Below are positions 411 through 40,528 of a stretch of DNA of 40,529 nucleotides, piece by piece (the first letter of the stretch is position 1; the number at the start of each line of letters is the position of its first letter). The position numbers were made by a program, and so were the translations under genes. The DNA lies in IMG/VR virus record IMGVR_UViG_3300042691_006394, positions 1 to 40,529 of that record. One strand, 5' to 3'. A model generated the notes under the pieces. It worked only from the letters and a program-made list of their open reading frames with translations. It ran no database searches and was not told where the DNA came from. The DNA comes from a virus.

Positions 411-2109
411 TGTCAGAGATGGACAGAGAGGCAACGTCAAGGTTGTCTGTCCAAAGTGCTCTGACAGCAGGAAGCATAAGAGCGATCCTTGCCTCAGCGT
501 TGATGTGGCTGAAGGTATATGGAACTGCCATAACTGTGGTTGGAAGGGATCTATCAAGACGCCAAAGAAGGAATACTTCAGGCCGATGACAGAACTCAAG
601 ACCTTAAGTGATGGCGTAGTCAAATGGTTTGCAGATCGGGGGATATCCAATCAGACTCTCATTAGATATAAGATATCAGAGGGGCTGGAATACATGCCTC
701 AGGTTAGCGAACAGAGAAACACCATTCACTTCAACTACTACTACAATGGCGAACTCATCAACATCAAGTACAGGACTAGTGATAAGCATTTTAAAATGGT
801 TTCTGGTGCTCAGCTTATTCCTTACGGGATTGACGTTGCAATTGACAATTCTGACACTGAACTGGTTATTGTCGAAGGCGAAATGGATGCGCTCTCGTTT
901 TACGAGGCTGGCATCAAGAACGTAATCTCTGTACCCAACGGAGCAAGCAAAGGATCACAGAAGCTGGAATGGCTTGACGAGGTGTACCACATCTTTGATG
1001 GCAAGAGGATCTGCTTAGCTACAGACATGGACGAGGCTGGCATAGCTCTGAGAAACGAGTTAGCCAGAAGGCTGGGCAAATCCAACTGCTGGATCATTGA
1101 ACTCCCATACAAGGACGCCAACGATACCCTGATCAACAGCGGAACAGCAGGATTGGTCGAGTGTTACAACTCAGCCAGTCCGTTTCCTGTAGAAGGTATT
1201 GACGATGCACTATCTGTAAAGCATGAGGTTCTCAGTCTATATGACGAGGGTACTCCTCAAGGCTTTGACATTGGTATGGACTTCATCTGGCATCCCGGTC
1301 AGGTTACTCTCGTGACTGGCATACCGGGACACGGCAAGTCCACCTTCATCAAGAACGTCATCTTTAAGCTGGCGGAGATGCACGGACTGAAGTCATTCAT
1401 CTACTCAGCCGAGGAGGCCAACACAGCCTTTGCATTATCTGATATGTATCAGATTGGCATAGGAAAGTCCTTCTTCAAGTCTGACTACAGCAGCAGGATC
1501 ACCCGTGATGAAATTGAGGAGTGGACGCCATTCATGAACGAACACTTCAAGTACTATCGGTTGTCAGATAACGACCTATCTATTGAGGGTATCCTTGAGA
1601 AGGCCAAAGACATGGTCAAGAGGTTTGGCGTGAACATCATGGTCATCGACAACATGAGTACTGTCGAGAAGAGTATGAGTAACCAGACCGATACTAGACA
1701 CCACCAGATAAAGAACATGATGAACGATGTGTCAAGGTTCGCCAGAAACTTTGGTGTCCATGTATTTCTTGTGGCGCACCCAAAGAAGATGACTGAGATC
1801 AAGAGTGGCATCTACAGAGTCCCTAACGGATACGATGTTGGAGACTCGTCACACTGGTTCAACCTACCTGACAATGGTATGACTGTCTACAGAAACCTCG
1901 AGACCAAGCAGACTGAACTACACAGATGGAAGGTAAGGTTTAAGTACTCAGGTCAGGTTGGAGTCAACTACTTCCAATTCAATATCAACAACAGCAGATA
2001 TCACCCAGTAGAAAAACTAAACGATGGCAGCGACAAGACGAAGTTCATCGGCCAGCCGATCACGAACAAAGACATCCAAGGTTTCGCCTCACTTGCAGAT
2101 TCTCTTTAA
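379..2109 (+). CDS. T7 gp4-like DNA primase-helicase
   Basis: This 576-residue bifunctional replication protein should synthesize RNA primers and unwind DNA at the fork. Three modules are visible in order. The first is a zinc-binding primase domain with C24-x2-C27 and C50-x2-C53. The second is a TOPRIM domain with the acidic EGEMDA motif (E166, E168) and the DMDEAG motif (D216, D218). The third is a DnaB/RecA-fold helicase with Walker A GIPGHGKST (K320), a Walker B ending at D424 in VIDN, and the FLVAHPKK helicase motif near residue 465. The length matches T7 gp4 (566 residues). It sits directly after a replisome-organizer-like gene. No DNA polymerase is visible in the window, so that partner must lie elsewhere in the genome. 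The start at 379 gives a natural N-terminus just ahead of the zinc finger. Confidence 0.93.
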   Translation: MIQQLRSLGINVRDGQRGNVKVVCPKCSDSRKHKSDPCLSVDVAEGIWNCHNCGWKGSIKTPKKEYFRPMTELKTLSDGVVKWFADRGISNQTLIRYKISEGLEYMPQVSEQRNTIHFNYYYNGELINIKYRTSDKHFKMVSGAQLIPYGIDVAIDNSDTELVIVEGEMDALSFYEAGIKNVISVPNGASKGSQKLEWLDEVYHIFDGKRICLATDMDEAGIALRNELARRLGKSNCWIIELPYKDANDTLINSGTAGLVECYNSASPFPVEGIDDALSVKHEVLSLYDEGTPQGFDIGMDFIWHPGQVTLVTGIPGHGKSTFIKNVIFKLAEMHGLKSFIYSAEEANTAFALSDMYQIGIGKSFFKSDYSSRITRDEIEEWTPFMNEHFKYYRLSDNDLSIEGILEKAKDMVKRFGVNIMVIDNMSTVEKSMSNQTDTRHHQIKNMMNDVSRFARNFGVHVFLVAHPKKMTEIKSGIYRVPNGYDVGDSSHWFNLPDNGMTVYRNLETKQTELHRWKVRFKYSGQVGVNYFQFNINNSRYHPVEKLNDGSDKTKFIGQPITNKDIQGFASLADSL

Positions 2110-2389
2110 GGAGAACTGGAGGACGTTCAATAACGGAGGTCAATGGCTTGAGTATGTGGAGGACAGTTCGGGGGAGAACCTTCTAGAACCAACAAAGCTA
2201 GAAGATATACAACCCAACAAGACATACTACATGCAGCAGGTATACAGAAAGAATGAGTTCCACCCTACAGTCTTTCATGAATCTGTAAGCTGGTCAACGA
2301 TTGAAGAGCTACATAAAACAGGAAGAATATGGCAACGAAAGGAAAGTCAGCAAGAGTCAAAGGTCATTCATTCGAAAGAGATATGGTAA
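2093..2389 (+). CDS. Hypothetical phage protein (start uncertain)
   Basis: The frame contains an ATG at 2024, but residues encoded between 2024 and 2092 are a Ser/Arg/Thr-rich run that looks like a frame shadow of the helicase C-terminus. A TTG at 2093 gives about 98 residues and only a 17-base overlap, so I prefer it. The body is aromatic and acidic (FKENWRTFNNGGQWLEYVED, then NKTYYMQQVYRKNEFHP). No catalytic motif is recognised. The 3' end overlaps the next gene by 61 bases in another frame, typical of tightly packed phage early genes. It fills an otherwise empty 220-base gap between two recognisable replication genes. The function is unknown. Confidence 0.6.
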   Translation: MQILFKENWRTFNNGGQWLEYVEDSSGENLLEPTKLEDIQPNKTYYMQQVYRKNEFHPTVFHESVSWSTIEELHKTGRIWQRKESQQESKVIHSKEIW

Positions 2390-2679
2390 AGTTCTTTCGT
2401 GATCTAGGGTTCGAAAAGTGTAACACATCAAGGTTTGAATCCAAGATGAAGGATGATCAAGGTATAGATCTAACAAACACAGACCCATTATCAGTTCAGT
2501 GCAAAGCTGTAGAAAAGCTCGGAAGCATGCATGATATTCTTGATAGTATGCCAAAGGATACAAATTGGAATATAGTGCTACATAAAAAGAATAGGAAGGG
2601 TACTATAGTTGCGATGGATATAGAAGACTTCAGAGAGATAATACAATCACTAATTACAAACCAAATTATTAAACCATGA
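2329..2679 (+). CDS. PD-(D/E)XK family nuclease (Hjc/resolvase-like)
   Basis: This 116-residue protein has the layout of a small PD-(D/E)XK nuclease: a basic N-terminus, an early acidic residue in the GHSFERD segment (E16), the second acid in QGIDLT (D47), and the Q-x-K pair in VQCKA (Q57, K59). The size and motif spacing recall archaeal-type Holliday-junction resolvases and small phage recombination nucleases. It would act on branched or damaged DNA during replication or before packaging. It lies next to the primase-helicase and overlaps the following gene by four bases (ATGA), suggesting translational coupling. The fold is fairly clear from the motif. The actual substrate (junction, flap or VRR-NUC-like) cannot be told from sequence alone. 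Confidence 0.7.
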   Translation: MATKGKSARVKGHSFERDMVKFFRDLGFEKCNTSRFESKMKDDQGIDLTNTDPLSVQCKAVEKLGSMHDILDSMPKDTNWNIVLHKKNRKGTIVAMDIEDFREIIQSLITNQIIKP

Positions 2680-3964: not shown

Positions 3965-4180
3965 ATGAGTACAGCAAACCAATCAGTAGGCGCAGCTTGG
4001 CGCAAGGTGATCAACACATCTAAAGGACAAGTAGAAATTCTCTCTCTAACTATTGGAGACAAACGCTACACTATGTGGCCTAATGGCTTCAAGAAAGAAG
4101 GTGAGAAGTCTCCAGACTATAGACTGACTGAAGACAACTACGAACCAAAAGCAAAAGCAGCAAGCGACTTACCATTCTAA
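3965..4180 (+). CDS. Small protein with SSB-like acidic tail
   Basis: The 71-residue product has a beta-rich core (GAAWRKVINTSKGQVEILSL, then KRYTMWPNGFKK) and ends in SDLPF. A short DLPF/DIPF tip is the usual docking tail of single-stranded-DNA-binding proteins, where it recruits replication partners. The core also recalls small phage OB-like or DUF736-type proteins. In this replication arm a role as a mini-SSB is plausible but inferred, since the domain is much shorter than a standard SSB. The start at 3965 follows an A-rich leader, and a strong hairpin follows the stop. Confidence 0.55.
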   Translation: MSTANQSVGAAWRKVINTSKGQVEILSLTIGDKRYTMWPNGFKKEGEKSPDYRLTEDNYEPKAKAASDLPF

Positions 4181-4493: not shown

Positions 4494-5029
4494 TTAAACT
4501 AGTTGGACTCAGTGGATATGCAAAGTCAGGGAAGGACGAGGTTGCCAGATTCATCAGGCAGCAGATGCCAACGTTTGAGGTGAAGAAGTTCTCCGGCAAG
4601 CTCAAGTATATCGCCAGTATGTTGACAGGCTTTGATGCATACAACTTCGAGAACCAGCATTTCAAGACAAAGGTTCTGCCGGGATGGAACATGACAGCTC
4701 GGGAGTTACTTCAGCGGCTGGGAACCGAAGCCATTAGAAACAACCTCCATGAAAAGGCTTGGGTCAATGCTTTGTTTGCAGACCACAGCCAGTATTCAAG
4801 GTGGGTTATCACTGACGTAAGATTCCCTAACGAAGCCCAAGAGATCAAAGACTATGGCGGAATAATAGTCAGGGTCAACAGAACTGGCTTTGGTCCAGTG
4901 AATGATCACCCATCTGAGACCGCACTAAACGACTGGGACTTTGACGCCATCATCGAGAACAATGGAACACTGGAAGATTTAAAAGAAACCACAAGAATAC
5001 TTTATGACACATATATACTTAAGGGATAA
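4490..5029 (+). CDS. Deoxynucleotide monophosphate kinase (T4 gp1-like)
   Basis: This 179-residue P-loop kinase should phosphorylate dNMPs to dNDPs for phage DNA synthesis. The N-terminus carries the P-loop GYAKSGKDE (G9 to K15, D16). LLQRLGTEAIRNNL and ITDVRFPNEAQEIKDYGG are hallmark segments of the phage dNMP kinase family; the latter (about residues 107-125) contributes base and phosphate binding. A DHPSE segment near 140 also fits. It sits inside the early arm with replication genes, overlapping its neighbours on both sides by 4 and 26 bases. The length is somewhat shorter than T4 gp1 (241 residues) but usual for short-form phage members. Confidence 0.88.
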   Translation: MIKLVGLSGYAKSGKDEVARFIRQQMPTFEVKKFSGKLKYIASMLTGFDAYNFENQHFKTKVLPGWNMTARELLQRLGTEAIRNNLHEKAWVNALFADHSQYSRWVITDVRFPNEAQEIKDYGGIIVRVNRTGFGPVNDHPSETALNDWDFDAIIENNGTLEDLKETTRILYDTYILKG

Positions 5030-5243
5030 CGAACAATACAAATTAGTAACAGACAAGGTAAGTGTTGACATTATAGCTCAAGATGTAAACGTATTCGTTG
5101 ACAAGAGCCCCATACTAGACGACCTCAAAGGGATATCAGTATCTCTCTCCCGAGCCATCGAAGAAGGCAACGACTTGCAGATTGGTATTGTCATCGGTCA
5201 GGTTCTTTCAAAAATAAATGAGATCATCAATGAAGTTAACTGA
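5004..5243 (+). CDS. Hypothetical protein, 79 residues
   Basis: The product has a beta-rich start (THIYLRDNEQYKLV, VSVDIIAQDVNVFV) and a C-terminal amphipathic helix (IGIVIGQVLSKINEIINEVN). No motif is recognised. It overlaps the kinase by 26 bases upstream and the next gene by 14 bases if that starts at 5230. Support is its position in the tightly packed operon and the absence of an alternative frame. Confidence 0.6.
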   Translation: MTHIYLRDNEQYKLVTDKVSVDIIAQDVNVFVDKSPILDDLKGISVSLSRAIEEGNDLQIGIVIGQVLSKINEIINEVN

Positions 5244-5529
5244 GTCACAGGCAGAGTCATTTGAGTTGTTGCACGCCAGTATATGTAACGCACTGATGTA
5301 TGCAGAGGATCTGCTAAAGCAAAAGCATGTTGCATTTAGAGAGACCATGCCACCTGTAATCACCAAGCTGAGGTGGCTGAAGACCGCCATTGAATTGAAG
5401 ATCCCTTCAGACCGAAGGAGCGAAGCTCGGGAGAAAGATCATCTGTTCTATGACGAACTACTAAGGTGTGCAACTCACATGGACTCCAAGACTAAAAAGA
5501 AATTAGAAGACTTTATAAACAAACTATGA
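5230..5529 (+). CDS. Hypothetical helical protein, about 99 residues
   Basis: The product is mainly alpha-helical (MKLTESQAESFELLHASI onward, ending TKKKLEDFINKL), with no catalytic motif recognised. Two ATGs are available, 5218 and 5230. I choose 5230 because it gives the more natural MKLTESQ N-terminus and a smaller overlap with the preceding gene. The stop overlaps the next start by four bases. It may be a small regulatory or DNA-associated protein. The function is unknown. Confidence 0.62.
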   Translation: MKLTESQAESFELLHASICNALMYAEDLLKQKHVAFRETMPPVITKLRWLKTAIELKIPSDRRSEAREKDHLFYDELLRCATHMDSKTKKKLEDFINKL

Positions 5530-5913: not shown

Positions 5914-6082
5914 AGGATGCCCAGCAAAAGAATCATGCTACAGGTTCACCGCAGAACCTAGCTATAGACAGTCCTACTTTCTCAACCCCCCGATCAAAGA
6001 TGACAAGTGCGACCATTACTGGGGTGAAAATTCTGAAAGCATTTGGAACCAATTAAAAAATATAGTCGATGGAAAAGAATGA
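5882..6082 (+). CDS. Small Cys-rich phage protein
   Basis: The 66-residue product has four cysteines in an ordered pattern: TMCSGEGCPAKESCYRF near the N-terminus and a fourth in DDKCDHYWG. This suggests metal binding. I recall the same pattern (CxxxxC...C...PPIK...C..YW) in small genes of Bacteroidota and other phages, but no function is known. The start could be the first or second Met (5882 or 5885). It overlaps both neighbours slightly. Confidence 0.62.
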   Translation: MMPDITMCSGEGCPAKESCYRFTAEPSYRQSYFLNPPIKDDKCDHYWGENSESIWNQLKNIVDGKE

Positions 6083-6533: not shown

Positions 6534-6556
6534 ACTATGGCACAACAAACGGCAGT
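6525..6556 (+). repeat. Direct repeat, copy 2 (leader and first codons)
   Basis: This is the second copy of the 32-base identical stretch at 6309-6340. It again covers the leader and the start of a MAQQTAVEWL gene. The repeat distance is 216 bases, so recombination between the copies would delete exactly one gene unit. Confidence 0.9.
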
Positions 6557-7989: not shown

Positions 7990-8176
7990 TCTCCAGAGAT
8001 TTCACCCTGCGTTCTACCCTCTTGATCCTGACGAGCATACTAGAGTCAGCCTTCATAAAGGTACTGTCGATCGATCTGATCTCAGGCTGGATTGGTTCGG
8101 GGGTGCGAGTGTACATGTAGATAGTAAATCCCAATAGACAGATAGCACCTATTACTGCAATGATTCTATTTGCCAT
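7979..8176 (-). CDS. Small single-pass membrane protein
   Basis: The product starts MANRIIAVIGAICLLGFTIY, a signal-anchor helix, and continues with a Pro-rich then basic helical stretch (RIKRVERRVKSLENGK). ATG at 8176 is preferred over the upstream in-frame GTG at 8182. It lies between two other membrane proteins in the lysis cassette. It could be an i-spanin-like or lysis accessory protein. No family is recognised. Confidence 0.55.
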   Translation of the reverse strand: MANRIIAVIGAICLLGFTIYMYTRTPEPIQPEIRSIDSTFMKADSSMLVRIKRVERRVKSLENGK

Positions 8177-8351: not shown

Positions 8352-8811
8352 ATGGGGTGTATACAGTTTTACCGTTCACCCTCTTAGCTTTAAGAATTTG
8401 TTTGCGTTGTTTGCCTGAAGACTCATAGGATACATGAACCCAGTCTGGGTTGTTATCACTCCCGAACTCCCAGATAAGCTGGTCAAATGCCAAGTTATCT
8501 TTAATATGATTGAACACATCAGCGTTGCTCACTCCGTTTGGAGATCCGTCCATGTCGATGTCGATGGCTTCCCCCGAACAGTGCTGACTTGTGGCGGAAC
8601 CACCGATTGCTGAGTTTAACTCTTTGCTCCTGTATCCTGATGAGATGTGTATTGGGCATCTGAAGTGATTACGGATTGGTTCAAATACTTTCTCCGCCAA
8701 TAGTTTGAAGTTGGCAATGTGCTCTGGGGTTGGCATATTGCTGATGCCATTCCTCTTTGCTGATTCACTGCGTACTACTTCTGATAAGTCTAAGTGTTCT
8801 GATAGTTTCAT
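8344..8811 (-). CDS. Peptidase M15-type peptidoglycan hydrolase
   Basis: This 155-residue protein matches M15A D-Ala-D-Ala peptidase-like endolysins. It has ISSGYRSKELN (about residues 56-66), the zinc motif SQHCSGEAIDID (H77, D84) and the third ligand in WVHVSY (H126). It would cleave stem-peptide cross-links in the host wall. The size is typical for small phage or endolysin M15 domains. It starts inside the stop of the 38-residue basic gene (ATGA overlap) and is followed by a holin-like gene. It is one of three wall hydrolases in this cassette. Confidence 0.88.
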   Translation of the reverse strand: MKLSEHLDLSEVVRSESAKRNGISNMPTPEHIANFKLLAEKVFEPIRNHFRCPIHISSGYRSKELNSAIGGSATSQHCSGEAIDIDMDGSPNGVSNADVFNHIKDNLAFDQLIWEFGSDNNPDWVHVSYESSGKQRKQILKAKRVNGKTVYTPYE

Positions 8812-10542: not shown

Positions 10543-13500
10543 TTGAATCCGTATTTCTCAAGTATCTGTACATATGCTATAGACCTAGCAGTCTCAAGTG
10601 CAGCATCAAACATAGACTCACTTATCATCCTATCATCCTCTTTGATACCATCCATAAATTCTTGGATCATCTTCTTGGATTCCTGACCAGCAAGCTTCCT
10701 ATACTCATAATATTCCTGATCATTCATTGGCCTCTCGGTACCATCCTCCATTATGATGTTCATCTTCTTAGGCACTCCAACAAAGAACTTGTTCTCGTTA
10801 AGCCACTTGATCATCTTGTCTCCTTCAGGATTTGAAACAGGAGTCAATCTCTCTGTAGTGTTATACTTAACCTCCTCGCCAAACACATCAATGATTGGCC
10901 TGATGCGATCGTTAAACATTGGAAGGTCTCTGTATATAACCTCCATGAAAGTTTTAGCATCACGCTGTGGATCGCCAGTAACAAGCTCACTATATAATCT
11001 ACCAGTCTGCTGTGCGAGATTGGATACAGCTACAGACTTAACCTGCTGTGCAACATACTTCTCCATTCTTTGAGACATCTTTGAGTCTGGGGCATACTTC
11101 CCACGACCAGCCTGAACGTCAAACATTCCAAAGAAATCTTGGAGTCCAGACAGCAAGGACTTGTCATACATATTCAAGAAGAAACCGTATGCATATAGCG
11201 GAAGCTGCGTGTTATCATCAAAGCTGTACTTCTTGGCGTCTCTTATATGACCAACGCCAGCAAGAATACCTGCGATTGGCCAGTCTTTATACGATATCTT
11301 AGTACCGTCTTTGAGTGTTATGGTATACGGCCTCCATTTGCCTTTCTGAAGTTCATATCTTTTCTGAATATCAGTAGATCCGCCAGCAGTAATTTCAAAC
11401 CAATCATCGTCATCCTCACCAACCTTGCTTGCAAGAATCGACAGAGCTGTCATCCCAATAGCAAACTTGTTGAACATGTCGATACGCTCTTCTGTGGTAA
11501 GCTTATTAGATCTATCATTAAATGGATTCCTTAATCCAGTAGCAGCCTTTATCAATCCAAAAGGACTATAATTAAGAGAGTTCTCTGTAAGGTTAGCAAC
11601 GATCCTAGCGAATGGGACTACCATCTTAATGGCTGGGAACTTCTGTTGCAACGCAACAGTTGCATCAAACAGTGGTTTAGTCCAACCCTCTGGATCGTAG
11701 TTCATTGTGATCCTCTTACCAATAGCATCAGCCTCGGCTGTTCCTTTTCTACCCTGTGCAACTATCTCAATTACCCTTCTCTTGTGCTGCAAAGTACCCG
11801 GCTTAAACCCTTCGGCAGTAGCCTGACTTCTGGCGTTGGATATATTCTCCTTTGTGTTGCCAAGCATTTGATTGGCCTTCTTGAAATTATTTCCAGCAGG
11901 AGTGCCAGCAGCTTCAGCATAGGCTAGCATGTTAGCAATAGCTTCTTGGTTAGCCGTAGAGAACAGTGCGTCAGTAGCGGCAAGCATTCTACCTACATAC
12001 TTCCATGCGCCAAAGTTTAATGGTGGTATCTTATCCAGAACCTGACCTTTCTTACCTAGCCACTTACTCCAAGTGAAATACTCTAGTGGACTCTCAGAGA
12101 AGTATTTGTCTGACTCTTTAGACCTAACGCCAGACTTCATGATGTCTGCCGCTGTTATAGCTCCTTTGGCAACCCCCGAACCGAATCCTTTTACGCCAGC
12201 AATCATAGACATAGGAGAACCATTCAACATGGCAATCCTGAAGGCTACCGCTGGTAATTCGAACGCAGTATTAAATATGTTGGCAAAGAAGTTGGTTGAC
12301 TGTGTTGTAACACCAGACAGGATCTTTGCATACCACAAGGCTTGCAATACGTCCATTGGTTTCATTGGCGCAATGCCAGCCAAGTAGTGAGACAGCTTAA
12401 TAATTGCCTTGTCTTTTGGTAAACCTTCGCTTGCATTGTTAACATCCTTCAACATACCAACGATCTCTCCCTTCTGCACCTCACTAATATTCTCAACTCC
12501 CTTCTTCTTAAGTTCTCTAAGTATCTTTGGCAGGAAGAACTCAACTGCATTAGGATCTTTCTTAAATGCTATGAATGCCTGAACCGCCTGACCTAAGTCT
12601 GTAGCTTTCTTTGCGAACTCATTGTATATGGCAGCTTGCTTATCGGCCAGAGCTTCCTTGATTGCAGGATCTGTCTCTGCTGACATCTGAGTGCCAAGTC
12701 TTTTAGCTACCTCTGCAGCCATCCAAACCTTGGAAACTTCTGGAATATCTGGATTGCCTAGAACATAGTCAGCAGCATCCACTATATTGAGTCCATCCAA
12801 GAACTCGTTGACAGCCTCTGATGTCTGCTTGTTGGGACGCTGGAAATATGTAACAGCATCGTCTTGAATCTTAGCCTGAGTCTCGGGATCGAGATCACCA
12901 AACTTAGATGACAAAGCCCTGTTCCTTTCTTTGCCTTTACCCGGAGCACGAAGGTCTTCTTCTGAACGGTTTCCTACCGAAGCCTGTATCCTGTTATCTG
13001 TAGTGCTGAATGCGCCAGAGTTATCTGTTGCGGATTTGATTTGACCCATATCTAATACGACATACTGGCTAGTGTATTTCATACCAAGCATGCCCTTATC
13101 TATGATACCATCAGCCGCATTTTCTTCAAGTGATTGAAACTCTTTTTGTGATATTCTATCAGCACCATACTTCCACTTTGACCATATGTTTTTTGGTAGT
13201 GGATTTCTTATATTTAGATAAGCATCAAAAACCTTAGACTTATCTCTATAGTCTTTGCTTGAAGATTTTGTGTAGGACTTTGCTCTGCTTTGACTAGAAG
13301 TAAAATATAGTCCATAGTCTCCTGTATATGTATCCTTACCTCTGTCTTCAGGATTTAATGTTCCTCCATGATAAACAACCAACGGCTCTCCATTCTCATC
13401 GACAACCTTAGATGCATTGGCAGGATCATTCTCCCAATCGCCAAACCAATTCTTAAACTCAGGCGTTCTTACCTGTTCGTATTGTTTGTCATTAAGGTTG

Positions 13501-16500
13501 GATGGTTTGCCGTTAGGTGCGAGGTTGCGGTTGCCTACAGAGGCTTGCGCTCTTGATTTTTTACTGAGCTCTGCTGCTCCGCCTTTGAGTTGTCTGATTT
13601 TACCGAGGACTTCTTGATCATTTCTGCCAACTGTTTCGCCAGCAAGGGAATCTCCGACTCTTGTACCTCCGGAAGTATTTGCTCGTCTGCCTGATACGGC
13701 TTGATTAATTTCTTCATCTGTTACTCCTAATTTTTTAGCAAGTTTCTTTGCTGCGTTAAAATAATCTGGTGCAGAATCTTCAGTATATCCTTCGGAAGCA
13801 TCTTCAAAAGACTCTCCCTCTTTGAAGGATTCATACAGTATCTTTTCTGGATACCACATTACAGCTTGAAGATCTGCCATTGTGATATCAACACCGTTCT
13901 CTTCGCTTAACCTTCTCTGCACATCAGAGAATACATCCCTGATAAACTTCCTTTCCTCTCCGCTAGATGGCGCTTCCTTCTCTCCCCTCAACAGTTTAGC
14001 CAGACCATTACCAGCCTTACGAAGCTCATCTGTTTTCTGATTCGAAGATAATAAATTTCTTACATCTTTTTTAGCAGAAGCTTTCTCAATTGCATTTGCA
14101 ATGTCCGATACAGACCTGCCAGATACAGAACCAATTACGGACTTTAATATCTTAGAAGCCTCTTTGTCAGACTTTATATCTTGTATTGAAGATGCTATTC
14201 TCTTTTTACCGTTAGATATCAGATCCTTATCACGTTCAATCAAAGTCCCAGTAAGGCGGCCCCATGTACGCATGAACCAGCGGTCCATAGTAAGCTGCCC
14301 AAACTCACCCCACAGATTCATATAGAATCCATTTCCAATCTTTGGGCCAAGTATTACAGCTCCATAGACATCCTCATTAGCCAACTCTCCACTAACTAGA
14401 TCACCCAACTTTCCATCAGGCTTACGATACTTGAGATCGCCAGCACGATGCTTAGATGTCAAGAACTGATTTATCTCAGCCATCGTTACGCCATTATCTA
14501 ATAGGCCATTAATAAGCTTAAGTGACTTTTTAATACCAACCTGTTGAGCACCAAAGTCTCCGTTTGGATCAAACCTTTTTGTATCCTTAAATATCTGATA
14601 CTGCTTCTCAGCAAGCTCAAAGTTCTTGTCTACTTTATTACCATTTGACATCACAGCCAGAGGTAAAATGAATGCTCCCCTAGCTTCCTGATCTGTCTCT
14701 ATCTCCGGATGTATAGCACTAATTGCAGCAAGAGCAGACTGTGTCTTTTCATCATACCATCCTATAGCTTCTGGGTGGGCAGATATAGCATTAGCAGCCT
14801 CTTTTGTTAATACATCAGAAAGATACTTTTTGGTACTATCGTTATAAACAGTTGGGTCAAATCCCTTACCATACTTCTTTTTAAGTTCCGGGATAAAACT
14901 TTTAAGCTTAGCCTGAACAGCGTCTTTAAAATCAACTTTGTTTGCAAAGCTTGATTGGTTTGCAAAGTTCTTAATATTCTCAAAGAATACTGGATTCTCA
15001 TCATTGCTTATCCTAGATTGTTCAGTCGATGCTTCAAATCTTTTTACATTACTTTCACCAACAACTTCAGCGATATCTCTACCAGTCTTCAACGCATCAG
15101 CAACTTGGCTGACAGTCTTTTTGAATGCTGCAAGATCTGTGTCGTTTAGGATAGGGTCAATGCCAAAAAATTTAGCAATACTGTTCACAAAATCAATAAG
15201 CTTCTGGCGCAATCCAGTATCCAGCTTGGATACATCAATTAATCCAGAGTTAATTCTACCTATTGTTTCTACAATAGCTTCGTCATTCTGAACCTCTGCG
15301 GCCTCTTCTTCAGAAACCTCACGTCCATACATTTGAGATAACTTCTCTCTTGAGTAGTTTTCTTTGGCCCAGTCAAGAGCACCGAATACTCCGTCATTGG
15401 TTTTAGCTGCTCCATTAAGCCCCCGAACTACCGCATCGTACAACTTCTTGTCGGTGTTCCTTATGATGTTCATCACAGGATGTGCAGCCTCGTGCCACAC
15501 AACCAGTCCAGCCTCGATGTCGTTAGCAAGCTTAGACTTGTCTATGATAATTGTTCCATCTGCTGCAATAAAAAGACCTTGATTACCCCTAGCAGCCCTA
15601 GCCCCTTCAGTATCAGTTGCTGAGTCAACAATCTTAAACTTAATGCCAGCCCTCTTCAAAGCCCTTGAAGCCATATCAATTGACTCTGCCAAAGTTCTGG
15701 TCACCACATCTGTACCTTTGCCAAATACATTTGGCATCCTATTATTGGCCAATGCATTTGCAATCTCTCTGAACTGCCTGTTATTAAACTTGGTTGGGTT
15801 GTCGCCAGTAGATCCAGTCTTTATGTTTTCATTGGTGTCAAGATCGTAGATAGATTCTTGGCCAGCCATTCCTGCAAACTTCACAGCAACATCTCTGTTC
15901 TCTTTTGGAGTAATAATATTAAGATCTATGGAAACACGGTTGCTGCCGGGAAACTTATACAGACCAATCTTAAACTGGTTGCCCTCAATCTTGTCACGAT
16001 TATCCTCTACAAACTGATCTACCATCTCTGGCGTGATCTCTTCTGTAGTGGTATTAATTGAAGCTGCAGGTACTACAAGGCCACCTCCAGTATATACACT
16101 ACCATCGATGTTCATTGTAACTCCAGCCTCTCCTTCACTATTCTTAATCTGATCTATGTTCTGTGATACCTTGTCTTTATCAACTCTCGTTAAAGAATAA
16201 GAATCCTCTATATTAGAGAACTCTTCTGGTAATAAAGCCATCTTCTGGTCAGCGAAAGGTCTCTGTGCCGGAGGAACATATCCTTCGTCACCCTTCTTCT
16301 TCATTGTACCATCAGGATTACGGAATGACTTGTTGAAGTTTACCCAAGAGTTTTGGCCCCTTGTCTCTGTGGTCATTGCTCTTCTGGCTAATGGAGAATA
16401 CATCCTTGCATGTACATTCCATGCATTCTCTTCTCCGATGGCGCCAAATGAATTACCTAACCTTGTATGGCCAAAATAGTCATGAACAAACCTGAAGATA

Positions 16501-27066: not shown

Positions 27067-27689
27067 TAGTCATTAATATTTTGAGCCTTATCTGCAGGCG
27101 GTGTTTGAACAAGTATGTTATATACAGTCTGAACAACCTGAGCCTCCATGTCAGACGAAAGTGGAAGAATGTCATAATCAGTTACCTGAGACATATCCAT
27201 TCCAACCAACCTGATGAATACACTGTTGATGCTGAGTCCGGGAAGGTTCTTTGTAAAGATTATATCCTTACCTATTACCTCGTAACCAATCAAACCACTC
27301 ATATCGCCAAGAAGATCCTGAGGCTTTACAATACCATACAGTGAAGATGGTATCGGAACGAATGGCTCATCAATGGCGTCAGTCTTTGATACATGTAATA
27401 CACCCATATTCCTTGGCAGACTTATCGGTATGCTCGGGAGTGTACACTTACTCTTTGTTGTTTTGTATGTTGTAACGGGAATTTGGTCATAGCTGTATAT
27501 CATACAGTTGTTAGGAATAGTATCACCTTCAGGCATATTAACCTGAAAATAATCCGTCTTCAATAACTGATTTGAAACCTGTTCAATCAATAACTTAATA
27601 TCATTTATATGCACACGAGCTGAAATGATAGGATTGCCTTTCAACATCCGCTGCACTTGCTCGCTTATCTTCTTCTTAGTAGTAGACAT
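27066..27689 (-). CDS. Structural/connector-like protein, 207 residues
   Basis: The product (STTKKKISEQVQRMLKGNPI, INDIKLLIEQVSNQLLKTDY, NMPEGDTIPNNCMIYSYDQI) matches a structural protein remembered from crAss-like and other Bacteroidota phages, located beside the ring protein. It has no catalytic motif. It is coupled by one-base overlaps to the ring-type gene downstream and the homing endonuclease upstream. A head-tail or tail assembly role is inferred. Confidence 0.65.
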   Translation of the reverse strand: MSTTKKKISEQVQRMLKGNPIISARVHINDIKLLIEQVSNQLLKTDYFQVNMPEGDTIPNNCMIYSYDQIPVTTYKTTKSKCTLPSIPISLPRNMGVLHVSKTDAIDEPFVPIPSSLYGIVKPQDLLGDMSGLIGYEVIGKDIIFTKNLPGLSINSVFIRLVGMDMSQVTDYDILPLSSDMEAQVVQTVYNILVQTPPADKAQNIND

Positions 27690-29028: not shown

Positions 29029-29306
29029 CAGAATCTATTATTAGGTATGTTCACCGTTTTGCCAATTCGAGATCCTAACTTCCAGTTAAGATCATTTATA
29101 TATCCCTTAGGGCTGTCGTTCTTGGCGTGTCTTGCGAAGTAGCTCTTAACCTGACCTTCAGTCTTGCCGCCCTTGGTCCCCCACTTGCCACGATGCTTAG
29201 CCTCCCCGCCTTTAAGAGTAATCTCCCGACCAGTCTTTGGATTAGTCCCAGTTGCGGCCCAAGCATGATTACCGTCCTTCGCTGCAAAAACTTTAAATAA
29301 AGCCAC
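29028..29306 (-). CDS. Small basic hypothetical protein, 92 residues
   Basis: The product is strongly basic and Gly-rich (KTGREITLKGGEAKHRGKWG, KTEGQVKSYFARHAKN). It begins MALFKVFAAKDGNHAW. No motif is recognised. It overlaps the downstream structural gene by one base and the lipoprotein gene by 14. It may be a small virion or nucleic-acid-binding protein. Confidence 0.62.
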   Translation of the reverse strand: MALFKVFAAKDGNHAWAATGTNPKTGREITLKGGEAKHRGKWGTKGGKTEGQVKSYFARHAKNDSPKGYINDLNWKLGSRIGKTVNIPNNRF

Positions 29307-29844
29307 CGACTAATCTTATTAGAGATTTACGAAATATTATTACCAGAGCCGCTACAAACAATGCCCAGAACTTTATCTGGAACCATCTTAGATCTGCCTT
29401 TAATTCCTTGTTCTCAGTTTGCGAACTGCGAACAGACAACTTCAGTGAATCGATCTGCTGGTCTCTGGATGAGATATCCTTCTTCAGAATATCCTCAAGC
29501 TTTCTGTCTCTAACAGTATTGGTTATGGTTTCCTTGCGTATGACTACAGAGTCAGCTGCTGTGTATGTGAGTACCCCCGAGCTGACCTTAATTCGTGCCC
29601 TTCCAATAGTAGTATCGAAATCTTTGCAAGGGACGTTAACTAGTTTCTGTACAATAGAGTCCTTATAGACTACACTATCTTTTACCTTTGTTACAACGAT
29701 GGTATCGTTGACGCAATATCCACGCCTTACCATTTCCTGAGCCACCTCATCAAACTTGGTCTCATCCCTGAGAACACGCTTGACAGGATCGCATCCGATC
29801 AGGAGGAGACTAATTACGATTACGCTTAGGTATTTCAACTTCAT
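29293..29844 (-). CDS. Candidate unimolecular spanin (lipoprotein with C-terminal membrane anchor)
   Basis: The in-frame ATG at 29844 is preferred over an upstream one at 29910, because from 29844 the product starts with a lipoprotein signal (MKLKYLSVIVISLLLIGC, lipobox LLIGC, Cys18). A long hydrophilic and partly coiled central region follows (about 20-150, including a KDISSRDQQIDSLKLSVRSS stretch). Near the end is a membrane segment (FWALFVAALVIIF, within about 157-175). N-terminal lipidation plus a C-terminal membrane helix is the topology of unimolecular spanins such as phage T1 gp11, which fuse the outer and inner membranes at lysis. It lies 20 kb from the lysis cassette but within the same late arm. 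Confidence 0.62.
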   Translation of the reverse strand: MKLKYLSVIVISLLLIGCDPVKRVLRDETKFDEVAQEMVRRGYCVNDTIVVTKVKDSVVYKDSIVQKLVNVPCKDFDTTIGRARIKVSSGVLTYTAADSVVIRKETITNTVRDRKLEDILKKDISSRDQQIDSLKLSVRSSQTENKELKADLRWFQIKFWALFVAALVIIFRKSLIRLVGGFI

Positions 29845-31316: not shown

Positions 31317-33224
31317 TTAATTTAACTTAACCCATGTTGTTCCGTTGTACCCCCACCATCCTGAGCTTGTTACAGCCCCCGAACCAGCGTTCGTTGCATA
31401 AGCCAACAACCCTTCAGCTGGAGATGATATAGCCTCTACCTGTGCTCCTGTCATTCGTGGTGGAAGGAAGCCTTTTGTAGTGGAATCTATTGCTACTTGT
31501 GCAGACGCATAGTATGTATTAGAACCAAATGTTATGTTAGTAGTATCCCTATCTCTGATGTAACTTATTATTCCAGTACGATTAAATAATCTTAAATTAT
31601 AATATGTACCATCATTATAAACATTAAAATTATAATGTGTTGAATTTCCAACCCTCCATGCATAACCAATAGAACCTCCAGTACCTTGACCATTAGTTCT
31701 TGCCATAAAAGCATCTACTGTTGCAGTTCCAGAATCAGCTACTACACCATGCCCTATTGTATTAGCACCATTTGCAAAAATCCAAGTACCAACAGAATTA
31801 TCTGTCAAGTTTGCAGTAATTCCTATTGCTCCATATAATATTCCAGTACTACCTAAGCTTCCAAGACTAATCAATTGTCTTGTTGTAGCATCAGTTGTTG
31901 AAATACCATTCAGCTGTATAGCATAATCAGTGGAGGTTTGTGTATTAGACATTGTAGCCCTTCCAGTAATCATTCCCGTAAACCGCCCCGTACCCTGCAC
32001 ATCAAGTTTGTATAGGCCAGTATCTGATGCAGTACCTATTAAAAAATTGTTTGAAGTGGAAAACCTTGCAACCTCTGTTCCTGCTCCACCTGTCCACCTA
32101 TCATTGTAAAATCCAAAACCTCCACCGCTTATAGAACCTATTGCATAACCTGCTCCTCCTCCCCATTGCGAAAAACCTAACATCACATCACCTGCACCTG
32201 ACCTTCGCAAATAACCCAATATACCATTCGCTGCTGGTGTACCATAAACATCAAAAACCCCTTGAATAGCTGACCCAAATGTGTGAAGTGAACCAACACC
32301 CAAACTTGATTTAAATGTAGATAAAGAAAAACTTTGTCTGTGATATTCTCCTTCTGTAACATCTTTTGATATAAATCTTAATGTGTTGTCACTACCAACG
32401 AATCTAATTATTGAACCATATTGCCTACTTGTTCCATCCGGATTTTCGTAAAAACTTAAACTTGCATTCCCATTTGAAATAGACGAATTTATTTCAAATA
32501 ACCCTTCATTTCCAGCACTTCCATATACAGATACTCTTCCACCTACAAAATTTAGATAATTGCCACTTTGCGTCACTGTTCTATTCCCAGTCAGTGTGCC
32601 ATCGCTGTTGTAGATATTTGTACTAGTAGGTAAAACCTGCGTAGACAACGCCCCCGTACTGTCGGTAACCACCATCCTCGATCCAACACCTGCAAAAGAC
32701 TCAACCTTTAAGCCTCCAGTATTCCTAAACAAAACCTCTCCTGTACCTCCAGTACCTATGTGTACAGGCGTTGCACCCATCTGATATCCAAGGTATGTAG
32801 CAAAGGAGTCCCAACCTACAAAGATTCCGTTGGTAAAATTGGTAGCCCTACCGTAAAACTGATTTGTTGTCACAAGGTTACCAATAGATCCTATAGTTAA
32901 GTCCCCATTAATTTTAGCAGTTCCATTAACATCTAGCTTAAAGCCAGCATCAGTAGTACCGCCAATAATAACATTACCGTTTGATGCAAATCTCGTAGTA
33001 GTAGATCCTACGATGTCAAGATTATTTCCGCCAAGAGTTACTGACCTGTTGCCAGAAAGAGTTCCATTAGAGTTGTATATGTTTGTAAATACAGATGAAG
33101 ATACTGTCTCTAGTCTCTGGGTCGTAGAGTTTCTTACCAATACTGAATATCCCCCCGAGCTGTAACCCTCAGCATTATCCTTAAGTATCCCAGCCTTATG
33201 TAGTATATCCGATAGTACCTTCAT
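31317..33224 (-). CDS. Tail-fibre/receptor-binding protein with modular repeats
   Basis: The 635-residue protein is Gly/Thr/Asn-rich and beta-helical in style. It carries repeated modules shared with the 35252-40528 fibre: NIYNSNGTLSGNRSVT (about 48-63) and a second copy (about 203-218), GFKLDVNGTAKINGDL and a later LDVQGTGRFTG copy, and a terminal GFLPPRMTGAQVEAI block (about 585-600) ending YNGTTWVKLN. Such modules are widespread in Bacteroidota fibre and surface proteins. It probably forms a distal fibre or adhesin. It lies among other fibre genes. Confidence 0.75.
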   Translation of the reverse strand: MKVLSDILHKAGILKDNAEGYSSGGYSVLVRNSTTQRLETVSSSVFTNIYNSNGTLSGNRSVTLGGNNLDIVGSTTTRFASNGNVIIGGTTDAGFKLDVNGTAKINGDLTIGSIGNLVTTNQFYGRATNFTNGIFVGWDSFATYLGYQMGATPVHIGTGGTGEVLFRNTGGLKVESFAGVGSRMVVTDSTGALSTQVLPTSTNIYNSDGTLTGNRTVTQSGNYLNFVGGRVSVYGSAGNEGLFEINSSISNGNASLSFYENPDGTSRQYGSIIRFVGSDNTLRFISKDVTEGEYHRQSFSLSTFKSSLGVGSLHTFGSAIQGVFDVYGTPAANGILGYLRRSGAGDVMLGFSQWGGGAGYAIGSISGGGFGFYNDRWTGGAGTEVARFSTSNNFLIGTASDTGLYKLDVQGTGRFTGMITGRATMSNTQTSTDYAIQLNGISTTDATTRQLISLGSLGSTGILYGAIGITANLTDNSVGTWIFANGANTIGHGVVADSGTATVDAFMARTNGQGTGGSIGYAWRVGNSTHYNFNVYNDGTYYNLRLFNRTGIISYIRDRDTTNITFGSNTYYASAQVAIDSTTKGFLPPRMTGAQVEAISSPAEGLLAYATNAGSGAVTSSGWWGYNGTTWVKLN

Positions 33225-35251: not shown

Positions 35252-38200
35252 TTAAATAATATTCCAATTTGTACCATCAGAGATGACATCCAAAGCAGTA
35301 TATCTTACTGCCATTGTGATGGATGTGCTACCATCAATGGTTTGTGATGATGTTGTATTGATAGTTACCGTTCCTGTTCCTACGTTCTTTAAAGTGTATC
35401 TGTTTGTATTACCTACGGCAGTCGGAAGAGTTAAAGTTGTAGTTCCACTAATCAGATAAACATAGTCAGTATTCGCAGCAGCACCTGCCGTAGTGTTAGT
35501 AGAGATATTGTTTACTGACCTTGTGATTCCTCCACCACTACCTGATGGTGTTGCCCAACTGCCATCACCTCTCAAGAATGTTGTAGCCGATGGTGTACCT
35601 GTGATAGCAGATGAGAAAAGTGGTATCCTATTAGTAGCTATCTCTTGAACTGTTGCAGCACTACCCGTAACATTGGCAAGGAAACTATTCGCTGCTACAT
35701 TCTGAATTTTAGCATAAGTGACAGCAGTGTTATCAATTGTCCATGTAGCACCACTACCACTAACTGTAATATCTCCTTTATCTCCGTCTGTCACACCTCC
35801 CGAACCGCCAATGATTGCCCATCCTGTTGATAGGTACTGATAGAGTCCCTCTGTAGCATCTGTTTGATAGACCACTAAACCAACAGCTGGGGTAGAGATA
35901 GCTGAGCGTTGAGTAGAGGTCATTCGTGGAGCAAGGAAGCCTTGAGTCGTAGAAGCAACATCAAGTATAGCAGATGCATGAGTTGTAGCTGCTCCTATCG
36001 CAACAGTACCCCTTTGTGCAGTACCATTATGAGCAAGAACAATATATCCGTACCCATTAGTAGATGCTTGTTCGCCTGTGAATATTCTTATACTACCGCT
36101 TCTTTGTCCAAATGAAGCCGAAGCATCATTACTAACAATATCTAAATATTGTGGAGTATCAGCCCTCCATAAACTTGGTTTTAAAGTTATCTTATCAACT
36201 AAATTATTGTTTGTAATCTCAATATGTGCAGTACCGCTACCTAATCTTACTGGAGAATTTGTTGCAGTAGAGTATATATCTATCCTTGCATTATTTGATA
36301 TTACAAAAGGGTTTCCTCCTGTTACTGTTATTGCTCCATTGGTGAAGTTTAATACTCTAAAACCTCCACTATTTGCAATAGTAAAAGTTCCACCAAACAT
36401 AGACAATCCAGTAACACTTGTTGCAGATGAATCTATTATATTTACTTGACCCGTATACCGCCCTGTGCCCTGCACATCAAGTTTAAAACCTGAGTCAACC
36501 GTGCCGCCAATGATTGTATTACCCTCTAAAGAGTTAAGAGATGTACCAACTGCGAATAGATTATACCTTGCCCCAGTTCCTGATACTGTTGCAGTATTGT
36601 TTATATAAACTCCAAAAGCATTAAGATTCGCAGAAAGACTTGAAGAATTACCAATAGCTAAAGATGCAACTGGAGTCGCAAAACTACCAGATACTGTTGA
36701 TGTCATTATTTTCCTTGTACCAGCAACAGGGTCACCTTGAGAGCCAACGTAAACATTTAAATCACCTAATATTCCTGATGAAAAAGAATGTACAGAATTG
36801 GATGTTATTGAGTTTGTCCCAATAGTCATTTTTGTCGTAGCATCTACACCTAAACCAGTACTGGTTTTCAATAACAAATTTCCACCACCTCCTGCTGCAA
36901 AAACAAAATCTACTGCACTCCAAATAACTCCTTGACCTGAACCTGTATATCCATTTCTAAATCTTATTGAAGTTGCACTACCTCCACCATTGTTTGCATT
37001 ATATAGTTGCAGATTTTCTGTTGTGCCAGACGAATTAGAATTTAATCTTAATCCAATATTTTGTACACCAGTAAAAGCACCATTAGTAAACGTAGGATTA
37101 ATATCAAGTCCTACAAGTACATCATTATTCGCAGCAGCAACAAGTGTATGAGTAAGATTCAATCCTCTCGCAATAGCACCTGATGCAATATTGCTACCTG
37201 TGAATGTAAGATTAAAACCACCACTTGTCACAGTCCTATTTCCATTCAGCGTTCCATCAGCAGTGTATATATTACCCGCTGCAAGACTCACCCACGATGT
37301 GCCGTTATAGAAGTCGCTTGTATTAGTTGTAGTGTTGTATACGGAGAGACCAGTAGCAGGGGACACGATGGCATCTCTCTGCGTTCCCGTCATCCGAGGT
37401 TGGAGGAAGCCACGGGTGGTGGAACGAGCCTCAAGAACTGCACTTGCAGGAATGCCAATACTTAAATTAACTGCTGCACTTTGCGTTGAAAATAAAGCGT
37501 AGTTACTCGTAAAATAATGAAATCCTGTACCTCCATCTCCAAAAACTTGAGCAGCACCTCTTAGTCCTAATCCAGCAGTACCACCACCAATTAAAGAAGC
37601 TGCATCGCCAATTAGTAATGTTGTAGAGTTGAATGACAAATACGATGCAGCAGCAGAAAGATTTAAACCAAATGCAGTAGTTATTGTTAATCCCCCACTC
37701 ACCCTCGCAGTCCCCTGCACATCAAGTTTGAAACCTGCGTCTGTTGTGCCGCCTACTACTACATTTTTAGTGGACTGGAACAGTGTCATTATAACATCTG
37801 AAGTACTTGGTTGAGCACTACCACCTCCAGTAAAGTATAGATTTGCATAAGGGTTATGGATAAATGCTCCACCATTAACTGGTAAGGCAAGAGATGTTCC
37901 TGCCATACCAATTTCCATATACCTAGAGTTTGCTCCATAAAAAATACTACCTCTTCCTAATGTATTACTATTGTGAATAACAAAACTTCCTCCTGCATTG
38001 CTAACGCCTAATTCAAGCTGACCTGCAACAAAACTTGTTGTTGCAGTTCCAATAGATAATTTATTCCCACCTAATCCTACCGTCCTATTCCCCGTCAGTG
38101 TACCGTCTGAGTTATAGATATTGGCAGTTGATACAGTACCCCATGACAAAGTACTTCCATCAGTTGTAAGATACTTACCACTATTGCCTGTCTGTGAAGG

Positions 38201-40528
38201 GAAGCCACTAACAAAAGTATAAGCATCATCCCAGTTACCTTGCTTTATTGTTGTAGGGATAGAATAACCACTTTGCAACCCTACGGCTATCGTTCCGCTT
38301 GTTGTTATAGGTGAGCCACTTGTAATTACTAAGCCTGTTGGGACAGTTAGAGCAACGGAGGTAACAGTGCCAACCCCACCTATTGTCCAGCTTCTATCCG
38401 CTGTTAAATCATAGGTAGTGCCGTTTATAGTAAGAGTCCTTGCATTGGTAACAGGAGTATATCCTAATGCTCCGGTAACGTCAGCAGATGTAAGTGTTAC
38501 TGCGCCAGTTCGGGAGTTGAATGAAGATACACCGCTGACAACATTTGCCCACGAAAGCGTATTCCCGTCTGTAGTCAAGAACTTACCTGCATTACCTGTT
38601 TGTGTTGGGAAGTTGGATACCCATGTATAGGCATCATCCCAGTTTGATATCTTAGTACCTGTGATTCCATAGGCAGGATGCGCTGTGAATACAGGATCTG
38701 TTTCTGTTGTTAAATATGTAATGCTGTCCAGAGTACCGTCACCCTTTACAAACTGTGATGCGCTCCCCCCGAGCCATCCTGCCTTGGTAGTATTCTTCCA
38801 AAGACCAGTAGCCAAATCATAGTATAAAATATCCTTATCGGCTGCAGAACTTATAAGCACATTATGAAGCTCATCAAGCTCAAATCCGTTTTGTATGTTA
38901 TAGATTATCCTGCCATTGGTTGGACTAGTCCTAGCAACAAAACCTATGAATACCGTATGGTTCGGTTGTGTTGGAGGAGTCTTAGTTACATAACCCGGGT
39001 TAGTTGCAGATAACCATATCTTATCACCGTCAAGTAGTGTGTCAGTCGTAAATGGATTAGGGGCCCCCGATCTTGTATCCAAGTCGTGCAACGTACCTAT
39101 AGCAGCTACCTGACCATCAGCATTATGTGCGATATCATCGACAACAACACCAAAGGTCTTGCTAGAAGAAGCCTCCGTATTAGCCTGTGCCAAAATAATG
39201 TTTGGCCTATTGCCTGTAGAACCCTGCAGGTAAACAATCTTTCCCTTGTGTATCGTAGATCCAGTACTGTTTCTTCCTATGATTGTAATCTTCTCTGCAT
39301 CGTCAACAATACCATCATTGTCGATATCGTATACAGCCTTAGATAAATATGTGGCGCTAATATCTGGAATGTCCGCAGCATCAAGAGTATCCCAATATGT
39401 GTCGTAGTCGGTTGTGGACTGCTTCCTCAGGAATTGACCTACAGTACCGCCTGCCTCAACACCGGGACCAACCATTCCTGCATTACCGGAATGAACAACA
39501 ACCTTATAGGCGTTGCTAGCCGGAGCAGTAGCAAATGATACATTTACTGAGTTGTTACTCGTGATAGTCACATCCGTAAGAACCTGAGCACCGCTGGTAA
39601 CCTCGTATACCTGAACCAGAACACAGTCGTCATTCAGGTTGTGTGTAACACTGTATATAGTATTTACGCCATCGCCTACAGTCGTGCAGTACGCAGCATC
39701 AATAGGAAATTGAGAAACCGCATAGTCTCCAAGATCGTATGCTGGTATTGGTTGATTTGTATGGACACACGGTATAGACTGGCCATTGCGCAGTATAACA
39801 AGTAGATCCTCATATACATCGTAAATGCCCTGCTGAGTTACTCCCCCGAGCAGCAAAACTCTCAGCATATCAGTCAGATGACTGAACAAAGTCTGAGCCT
39901 TCTCGAAGTCAGGGAAGTCGCCATTGCATTCAATAGACTGCTGCCTGAGAACCTCAATCAAAGGAATCAGATCCTCGATCGGCTCGGGAGTACAAGCCTC
40001 AGCAGTAACGGTCTTGCTGATTGTCTCCAGAACACTAAGCCAAGCATAGGTCTGGTGTGAATATGTCAGCGTAGAAGCAAGTGTAATAGTATAGACAGCA
40101 TCGTAGTAGTTTCCGCTATGCTGCAGGTTAATAGCTGAAGTTGTACTAGTCTTGGTTCCTGTAGGAATACTTACCGCAGTCCAAGCTCTTGTTGGCGCAG
40201 TGTTATTGTATCCAGAAACAGAATAGTTGGTGCTGTCGGAATAAGAAAGGTTCGGGGTAAATACATCAAAGTTCTCAGTCAGAACTAAGTCGACAGGAAC
40301 ATACTGAAATACAAAGCTCCTAGTGAATGTACTGACCACATCGTCTGTGGTCTTGATCTCGTATAGAATCGTATATGTACCACACTGAACACCGCCCGTA
40401 GAACTAAGCCTAAGGTTAGTAGAAAAAGTGCCCCCCGAACTGGTCACGTCAGGAGTTGCAAAATTACCAGTTCTTACGTAACCATCAGGCTGTGTGACTG
40501 TAAAGATGCCGATGGCTCCGACAGGATA
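35252..40528 (-). CDS. Large tail-fibre protein, 5' end outside window
   Basis: The frame is open to the right edge (a GTG at 40447 is internal), so at least 1758 codons are visible and the true start lies outside. The N-terminal visible part has beta domains, then a helical segment (PEPIEDLIPLIEVLRQQSIE onward), then CVLVQVYEVTSGAQVLTDVT. A long modular region follows with repeats: GKFLTTDGNTLSW, NIYNSDGTLTGNRTV, GFKLDVQGTARVSG and GFLxPRMTxTQRxAI blocks at about 37367-37412 and 35897-35941. The end is a beta domain (TYLTLPTAVGN-like). It probably forms the main receptor-binding fibre. Module shuffling with the 31317-33224 fibre is likely. Confidence 0.78.
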   Translation of the reverse strand, partial: YPVGAIGIFTVTQPDGYVRTGNFATPDVTSSGGTFSTNLRLSSTGGVQCGTYTILYEIKTTDDVVSTFTRSFVFQYVPVDLVLTENFDVFTPNLSYSDSTNYSVSGYNNTAPTRAWTAVSIPTGTKTSTTSAINLQHSGNYYDAVYTITLASTLTYSHQTYAWLSVLETISKTVTAEACTPEPIEDLIPLIEVLRQQSIECNGDFPDFEKAQTLFSHLTDMLRVLLLGGVTQQGIYDVYEDLLVILRNGQSIPCVHTNQPIPAYDLGDYAVSQFPIDAAYCTTVGDGVNTIYSVTHNLNDDCVLVQVYEVTSGAQVLTDVTITSNNSVNVSFATAPASNAYKVVVHSGNAGMVGPGVEAGGTVGQFLRKQSTTDYDTYWDTLDAADIPDISATYLSKAVYDIDNDGIVDDAEKITIIGRNSTGSTIHKGKIVYLQGSTGNRPNIILAQANTEASSSKTFGVVVDDIAHNADGQVAAIGTLHDLDTRSGAPNPFTTDTLLDGDKIWLSATNPGYVTKTPPTQPNHTVFIGFVARTSPTNGRIIYNIQNGFELDELHNVLISSAADKDILYYDLATGLWKNTTKAGWLGGSASQFVKGDGTLDSITYLTTETDPVFTAHPAYGITGTKISNWDDAYTWVSNFPTQTGNAGKFLTTDGNTLSWANVVSGVSSFNSRTGAVTLTSADVTGALGYTPVTNARTLTINGTTYDLTADRSWTIGGVGTVTSVALTVPTGLVITSGSPITTSGTIAVGLQSGYSIPTTIKQGNWDDAYTFVSGFPSQTGNSGKYLTTDGSTLSWGTVSTANIYNSDGTLTGNRTVGLGGNKLSIGTATTSFVAGQLELGVSNAGGSFVIHNSNTLGRGSIFYGANSRYMEIGMAGTSLALPVNGGAFIHNPYANLYFTGGGSAQPSTSDVIMTLFQSTKNVVVGGTTDAGFKLDVQGTARVSGGLTITTAFGLNLSAAASYLSFNSTTLLIGDAASLIGGGTAGLGLRGAAQVFGDGGTGFHYFTSNYALFSTQSAAVNLSIGIPASAVLEARSTTRGFLQPRMTGTQRDAIVSPATGLSVYNTTTNTSDFYNGTSWVSLAAGNIYTADGTLNGNRTVTSGGFNLTFTGSNIASGAIARGLNLTHTLVAAANNDVLVGLDINPTFTNGAFTGVQNIGLRLNSNSSGTTENLQLYNANNGGGSATSIRFRNGYTGSGQGVIWSAVDFVFAAGGGGNLLLKTSTGLGVDATTKMTIGTNSITSNSVHSFSSGILGDLNVYVGSQGDPVAGTRKIMTSTVSGSFATPVASLAIGNSSSLSANLNAFGVYINNTATVSGTGARYNLFAVGTSLNSLEGNTIIGGTVDSGFKLDVQGTGRYTGQVNIIDSSATSVTGLSMFGGTFTIANSGGFRVLNFTNGAITVTGGNPFVISNNARIDIYSTATNSPVRLGSGTAHIEITNNNLVDKITLKPSLWRADTPQYLDIVSNDASASFGQRSGSIRIFTGEQASTNGYGYIVLAHNGTAQRGTVAIGAATTHASAILDVASTTQGFLAPRMTSTQRSAISTPAVGLVVYQTDATEGLYQYLSTGWAIIGGSGGVTDGDKGDITVSGSGATWTIDNTAVTYAKIQNVAANSFLANVTGSAATVQEIATNRIPLFSSAITGTPSATTFLRGDGSWATPSGSGGGITRSVNNISTNTTAGAAANTDYVYLISGTTTLTLPTAVGNTNRYTLKNVGTGTVTINTTSSQTIDGSTSITMAVRYTALDVISDGTNWNII

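Follow-up and report, generated by a model that had tools for sequence, protein, structure and literature searches.

The 40,529-base stretch of viral DNA analysed here (the window; IMG/VR record IMGVR_UViG_3300042691_006394) carries a dispersed, asymmetric word, spelled in full YAGYTCGGGRG with the strong form CAGNTCGGGGG. In this phage and its relatives the word is strongly enriched, held at homologous positions, independent of frame and peptide, confined to one clade and, in the middle and late segments of the genome, biased in orientation. Something made by the phage probably reads the word itself. That it is an oriented DNA site whose most likely reader is the phage's own replication/recombination module is the view that we tentatively favour, at a little under an even chance.

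Enrichment and spelling of the word

The 7-mer TCGGGGG occurs 22 times in the window, on the plus strand in 5 cases and on the minus strand in 17 (Table 1). Every copy and coordinate given by the original prediction was correct. Dinucleotide shuffles of the window gave far fewer copies (n=100; mean 1.3, maximum 5). A G at −2 precedes 20 of the 22 copies, CAGN lies upstream of nine, the number previously counted, and 22 of the 37 runs of at least five G in the window are preceded by TC. The sister form GNTCGGGAG contributes nine further copies, while GNTCGGGRG is observed 29 times against 0.71 expected. As GNTCGGGAG is enriched across the clade with the same C-A-G-pyrimidine (CAGY) flank as the form with five Gs (G5), the full word is YAGYTCGGGRG. 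Enrichment in the window is real and stronger than originally stated. The nearly even spacing that had been remarked on does not amount to a rule, coefficients of variation being ∼0.4–1.0, mostly as for random placement. The literature searched held nothing relevant to the word.

Table 1. Copies of the word, linked genes and leader-position elements; positions refer to the window unless a genome is named.
Feature	Position	Strand	Context
Primase-helicase gene	379..2109	+	PHROG and Pfam matches; in core common to motif-bearing phages
RusA-like Holliday junction resolvase gene	2329..2679	+	PHROG phrog_244, E 6e-15; shared core
GATCGGGGG	634..642	+	within primase-helicase gene, Arg-Gly codons CGG GGG
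GTTCGGGGG	2166..2174	+	directly past primase-helicase stop codon
GATCGGGGG	5987..5995	-	close to convergent end of rightward genes
GTTCGGGGG	8095..8103	+	minority orientation
GTTCGGGGG	8571..8579	-	M15 peptidase gene
GTTCGGGGG	12173..12181	-	gene of 3051-aa giant protein
GTTCGGGGG	15420..15428	-	giant protein gene
TCGGGGG, without G at −2	18362..18368	-	giant protein gene
GCTCGGGGG	21467..21475	-	
GGTCGGGGG	22071..22079	+	minority orientation
GTTCGGGGG	22798..22806	-	crAss muzzle-like gene
GCTCGGGGG	23878..23886	-	muzzle-like gene
GCTCGGGGG	25175..25183	+	minority orientation, antisense within muzzle-like gene
TCGGGGG, without G at −2	26134..26140	-	muzzle-like gene
GATCGGGGG	27013..27021	-	
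GCTCGGGGG	29574..29582	-	
GTTCGGGGG	31376..31384	-	
GCTCGGGGG	33152..33160	-	
GCTCGGGGG	38766..38774	-	
GATCGGGGG	39064..39072	-	
GCTCGGGGG	39843..39851	-	
GTTCGGGGG	40432..40440	-	
Sister form GCTCGGGAG	4697..4705	+	
Sister form GCTCGGGAG	5147..5155	-	
Sister form GCTCGGGAG	5425..5433	+	
Sister form GTTCGGGAG	8459..8467	-	
Sister form GCTCGGGAG	27432..27440	+	
Sister form GGTCGGGAG	29223..29231	-	
Sister form GTTCGGGAG	35797..35805	-	
Sister form GTTCGGGAG	38508..38516	+	
Sister form GCTCGGGAG	39982..39990	+	
Leader elements	G021 (IMGVR_UViG_3300032116_000195), oriented 10695, 11008, 11472, 11942		other genomes also
Hammerhead-like	L096 11644-11700 and 11123-11213	-	
Hammerhead-like	G012 about 4110-4170		

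Selection on nucleic acid rather than peptide

Codon- and dinucleotide-shuffled controls, which the original prediction had called for, both fail to reproduce the TCGGGGG count. Synonymous-codon shuffles gave 0.81 sense and 0.17 antisense copies, compared with 18 and 2 observed in genes (the 18 on the coding strand of their own gene agreeing with the earlier count), and for the 9-mer the codon-shuffled mean was 0.28 against 18 in genes. All three reading frames are used, as had been claimed. In 13–14 pooled genomes the G at −2 is kept in each frame, and in 80–98% of sense, antisense and intergenic copies, which argues that selection acts on the nucleic acid and not on the peptide. The codon pairs CGG-GGG and TCG-GGG occur 11–12 times over expectation. 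Arg87-Gly88 of the primase is encoded by CGGGGG in 9 of 14 genomes, CGG making up 4.5% of Arg codons, and the word site at 634..642 is spelled by rare codons and kept in 9 of the 13 phages compared. The codon shuffles, the conservation, the −2 G and the rare codon pairs bear out the earlier inference that a DNA or RNA word is selected, and selection on the word is the sole reading that fits. That base composition, codon usage or a frequent Ser-Gly peptide gives rise to the word as a side effect is hardly credible; G is indeed abundant on the coding strand in the late arm, but the shuffles, the use of all frames, the conservation of sites and the lack of bias in near-miss words rule this out as the sole cause.

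The phage and its relatives

By its sequence the window is a fragment of a crAss-like phage of ∼61 kb; it corresponds to positions 19380–59908 of a 61,112-base virus contig (99.99% match), and several related contigs have matching ends, like circular maps. The gene content, with muzzle protein matches, a primase-helicase and, outside the window, the recombination and replication genes described below, suggests a crAss-like podovirus. The nearest isolate relatives of the primase among the matches listed are Tenacibaculum and Flavobacterium phages (∼33–34%), and a host in the Bacteroidota is therefore likely. When the host was sought through genome contigs, only primases at 24–38% identity turned up. 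The 3,051-residue protein encoded at 10539–19694 (minus strand) contains an ADP-ribosyltransferase (ART-PolyVal) domain at residues 2099–2229. Small repeated genes, several per phage, whose products start MAQ(Q/K)TAVEW, are present at 6295–6565 (plus strand) of the window and in the related genomes G010 and G018.

A search of related phages, also proposed at the outset, revealed the same word in contigs whose primase is at least 57–60% identical (57–100%), while TCGGGGG occurs no more than twice in those with a primase of ∼41% identity or less. TCGGGGG is the top 7-mer in all seven motif-bearing genomes or loci ranked, and 7-mer ranking of motif-free relatives gave no convincing analogous enriched word. 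The density of the G5 form in the clade is ∼0.3–0.7 copies per kb. Between phages of ∼70–74% DNA identity 30–69% of aligned copies are intact, compared with 7–18% for GC-rich controls; most pairs, at near 50–60%, retain at least about half of their copies at homologous positions. One genome, G004 (L137–L139), is mostly excluded from pooled counts because its GC content drops from ∼42% to 31% near 15 kb (oriented) and its later genes lack matches in the clade. These features suggest a mosaic phage or an assembly chimera, in which the clade's replication module is joined to unrelated late genes.

Orientation along the genome

Genomes were oriented with the primase on the plus strand, the early arm being the 14 kb before the primase (mostly outside the window) and the middle segment the next 5.2 kb. 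The strong form CAGNTCGGGGG is distributed +4/−51 in the early arm, +13/−1 in the middle segment and +10/−64 in the late arm. Near-miss words, TCGGGG[ACT] among them, are by contrast split almost 1:1. When homologous sites are counted once, independent clusters of GNTCGGGGG number 15/73, 13/2 and 28/119, respectively (middle versus early or late, Fisher ∼2.5e-7); in G021 the strands carry 11 and 28. The orientation switches twice, where the initiator and primase genes meet and again close to +5 kb. The search for an origin located none, iterons were not found beside the initiator, and repeats at +5.7 kb (G021) and +4.4 kb (G010) were rejected as an iteron origin, as they are duplicated small genes.

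The coding-strand bias originally reported holds in middle and late genes and is absent or reversed in early genes. Among genes 360 bases or longer, the late arm has 94 sense and 25 antisense independent sites and the middle segment 8 and 0 (together 102 versus 25), compared with 10 and 17 in the early arm. Early polarity is therefore carried mostly by intergenic leader copies. Within genes of every arm, GGGAG prefers the sense orientation and does not track the genome strand. As early polarity lies chiefly between genes and GGGAG simply prefers sense, we do not claim that replication direction sets orientation. A coding-strand or mRNA-only rule is weakened by the early arm and the antisense copies.

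A tRNA-like leader in the early arm

Of the early intergenic copies, the majority are located at the 5′ boundary of a leader element that covaries and resembles a tRNA; the elements described are outside the window. Each directly follows a stop codon and comprises CCCCC, a stem of 7 base pairs and a hairpin of 5 base pairs closed by a 7-base loop, after which comes the next ATG, a geometry equal to that of a tRNA acceptor plus T arm. Compensatory changes are seen in 8 of 12 pairs (25 sequences), the CCCCC ahead of the stem is unpaired, and the 7-nt loop is often UUCGANU. The elements have no Rfam match at gathering scores in the stretches searched. They could be RNase P-type processing sites. 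At some genes a hammerhead ribozyme-like sequence occupies the leader position instead, with a Hammerhead_3 match of 44.4 bits that is below the gathering score of 48.5 (E 1.6e-7, 5.2-kb search).

Genes linked to the word

In addition to the primase-helicase and the RusA-like resolvase, the phage encodes, outside the window, an integrase, an Erf annealing protein, a YqaJ/RecE-like exonuclease and a Phg_2220_C/DnaD-like initiator whose gene overlaps the start of the primase. A NUMOD/HNH homing endonuclease adjoins the replication genes (3187–3939, plus strand). The genes for the exonuclease, a small protein termed p149, the primase and the resolvase are present in the motif-bearing loci tested, and motif-free relatives have, of these, just a primase of 38–41% identity. 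Erf and the integrase are strongly divergent among the motif-bearing loci tested. A p149 profile found matches in 44 loci, every one of which carries the word, and gave no match in 60 loci that lack it; eight further word-bearing loci without a match were fetched around other genes or are incomplete. As several linked genes share this association, co-occurrence does not single out the reader.

The fold of p149 is possibly DnaA-domain-IV-like. Its predicted structure (pLDDT 86.9) has as best Foldseek match in the PDB the DnaA DNA-binding domain 3pvp (prob 0.84), at a non-significant E of 1.6, and among viral proteins it matches phage DnaA C-terminal proteins with prob up to 1.00, the best E of ∼0.12–0.2 being likewise not significant. 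Profile comparison of p149 with Bacteroidota DnaA domain IV was negative, and homology finds no support at the sequence level. The DnaA likeness is therefore treated as a lead.

Discussion

We infer that DNA rather than RNA is read. YAGYTCGGGRG would then be a clade-specific, asymmetric recognition site on phage DNA, held by selection and pointing mostly one way. Its reader may be the YqaJ/RecE-like exonuclease, p149, the Phg_2220_C/DnaD-like initiator, the primase-helicase or the RusA-like resolvase, acting at the word in a strand-dependent manner, such as by loading, pausing, priming or nicking. The oriented replication or recombination signal suggested at the outset remains the favoured candidate. 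Counting against a DNA site are the small size of the antisense excess in early genes, which leaves early polarity mainly to leader copies, the RNA function that those copies may serve, the adherence of GGGAG to coding sense, the non-significant fold matches of p149 and the failure to locate an origin.

Several of these points would suit the main rival, a signal in RNA, for example an early-to-late switch through base pairing or protein binding, in which middle and late mRNAs carry CAGYUCGGGRG and early leaders the complement CCCCCGAACUG. We consider such a signal unlikely, if worth serious attention. The prevalence of sense copies in middle and late genes, the position of early intergenic copies at the leader edge and the preference of GGGAG for sense in all arms are consistent with it, but the antisense clusters (25 late, 17 early) are far above chance and keep the −2 G. 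Moreover, C and T are equally frequent at −1 of late copies while the leaders offer almost solely A, full pairing of GGGAG with CCCCC is impossible, and in G003/G004 minus-strand TCGGGGG lies inside or among plus-strand genes, two of three such copies lacking G at −2. A site-specific nick word of the T5, phiKMV-like or LUZ24-like kind, at which a phage nickase would cut one strand per copy, is in our estimate improbable. Known nick words are short, present in many copies in coding and non-coding DNA, restricted to one strand and similarly placed in relatives (PMC3517423, PMC11780129). The word described here is likewise short, asymmetric, numerous, located in and between genes, strand-biased, clade-specific in spelling and conserved in position among related phages. 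Nick words are, however, essentially one-stranded (the LUZ24 control word occurs nine times on one strand and never on the other), whereas about a quarter of the present copies are reversed, a 5-kb middle segment is inverted and copies are more numerous; no nickase was identified. Of the known kinds the LUZ24-like and phiKMV-like nick words are the closest in size, number, independence of frame and conservation of position, although we file the word neither there nor under Chi.

Resemblance to a host Chi site, which would stop a host nuclease of the RecBCD/AddAB type and so protect phage DNA, lies in the G-rich, asymmetric, dispersed, oriented and frame-independent character of the word. Phages can enrich host Chi, ∼2–3-fold in lambdoid phages and strongly, it is reported, in recombinase-free phages (PMC3784561). 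The phage studied here is enriched tens of fold and has its own exonuclease and Erf. Host Chi is very unlikely, since among 396 sampled Bacteroidota genomes none approaches such a density (the largest count is 73 in 5.5 Mb); nor is the word comparably enriched in any of 13 assorted bacteria. Still less likely is that the phage primase recognises the word on the template of the lagging strand. Such a template would suit the orientation on both sides of the initiator/primase junction, and the word is present with primases at least 57% identical and absent near 40%, but the primase sites known are some three bases in length, and the part of the late arm immediately to the right of +5 kb is misoriented for a simple bidirectional fork. 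DnaA boxes are also asymmetric 9-mer sites, and the phage core holds a predicted DnaA-domain-IV-like protein; unlike them the word is not TTWTNCACA, the fold match of p149 is not significant, and binding by it is putative. KOPS (FtsK-orienting polar sequences) share the G-rich, polar, octamer-like character and the orientation along a replicon, but they serve a host chromosome function, and the phage word shows no sign of a translocase. The word is enriched and shows no avoidance, which makes the restriction-related site once suggested unlikely; among the proteins searched, part of the proteome, there was no methyltransferase.

A more speculative form of the oriented DNA site, to which we give little weight, is a private polarity code in which a DnaA-domain-IV-like protein reads dozens of boxes of 9–11 bases. 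The boxes would be directed outwards from an origin located where initiator and primase meet and would steer replication or recombination separately on each strand, with the word also forming part of the tRNA-like early leaders.

Dispersed oriented words in phage genomes have been a puzzle for 50 years, since the nicks of T5, and their function is unsettled. The present data add a strongly selected word in uncultured crAss-like phages, together with its tolerance, a map of its orientation and a small set of genes linked to it, so that binding assays on a few proteins could test the reader directly. Should the word report replication polarity, it would also help to find the origins of phages that resist cultivation.
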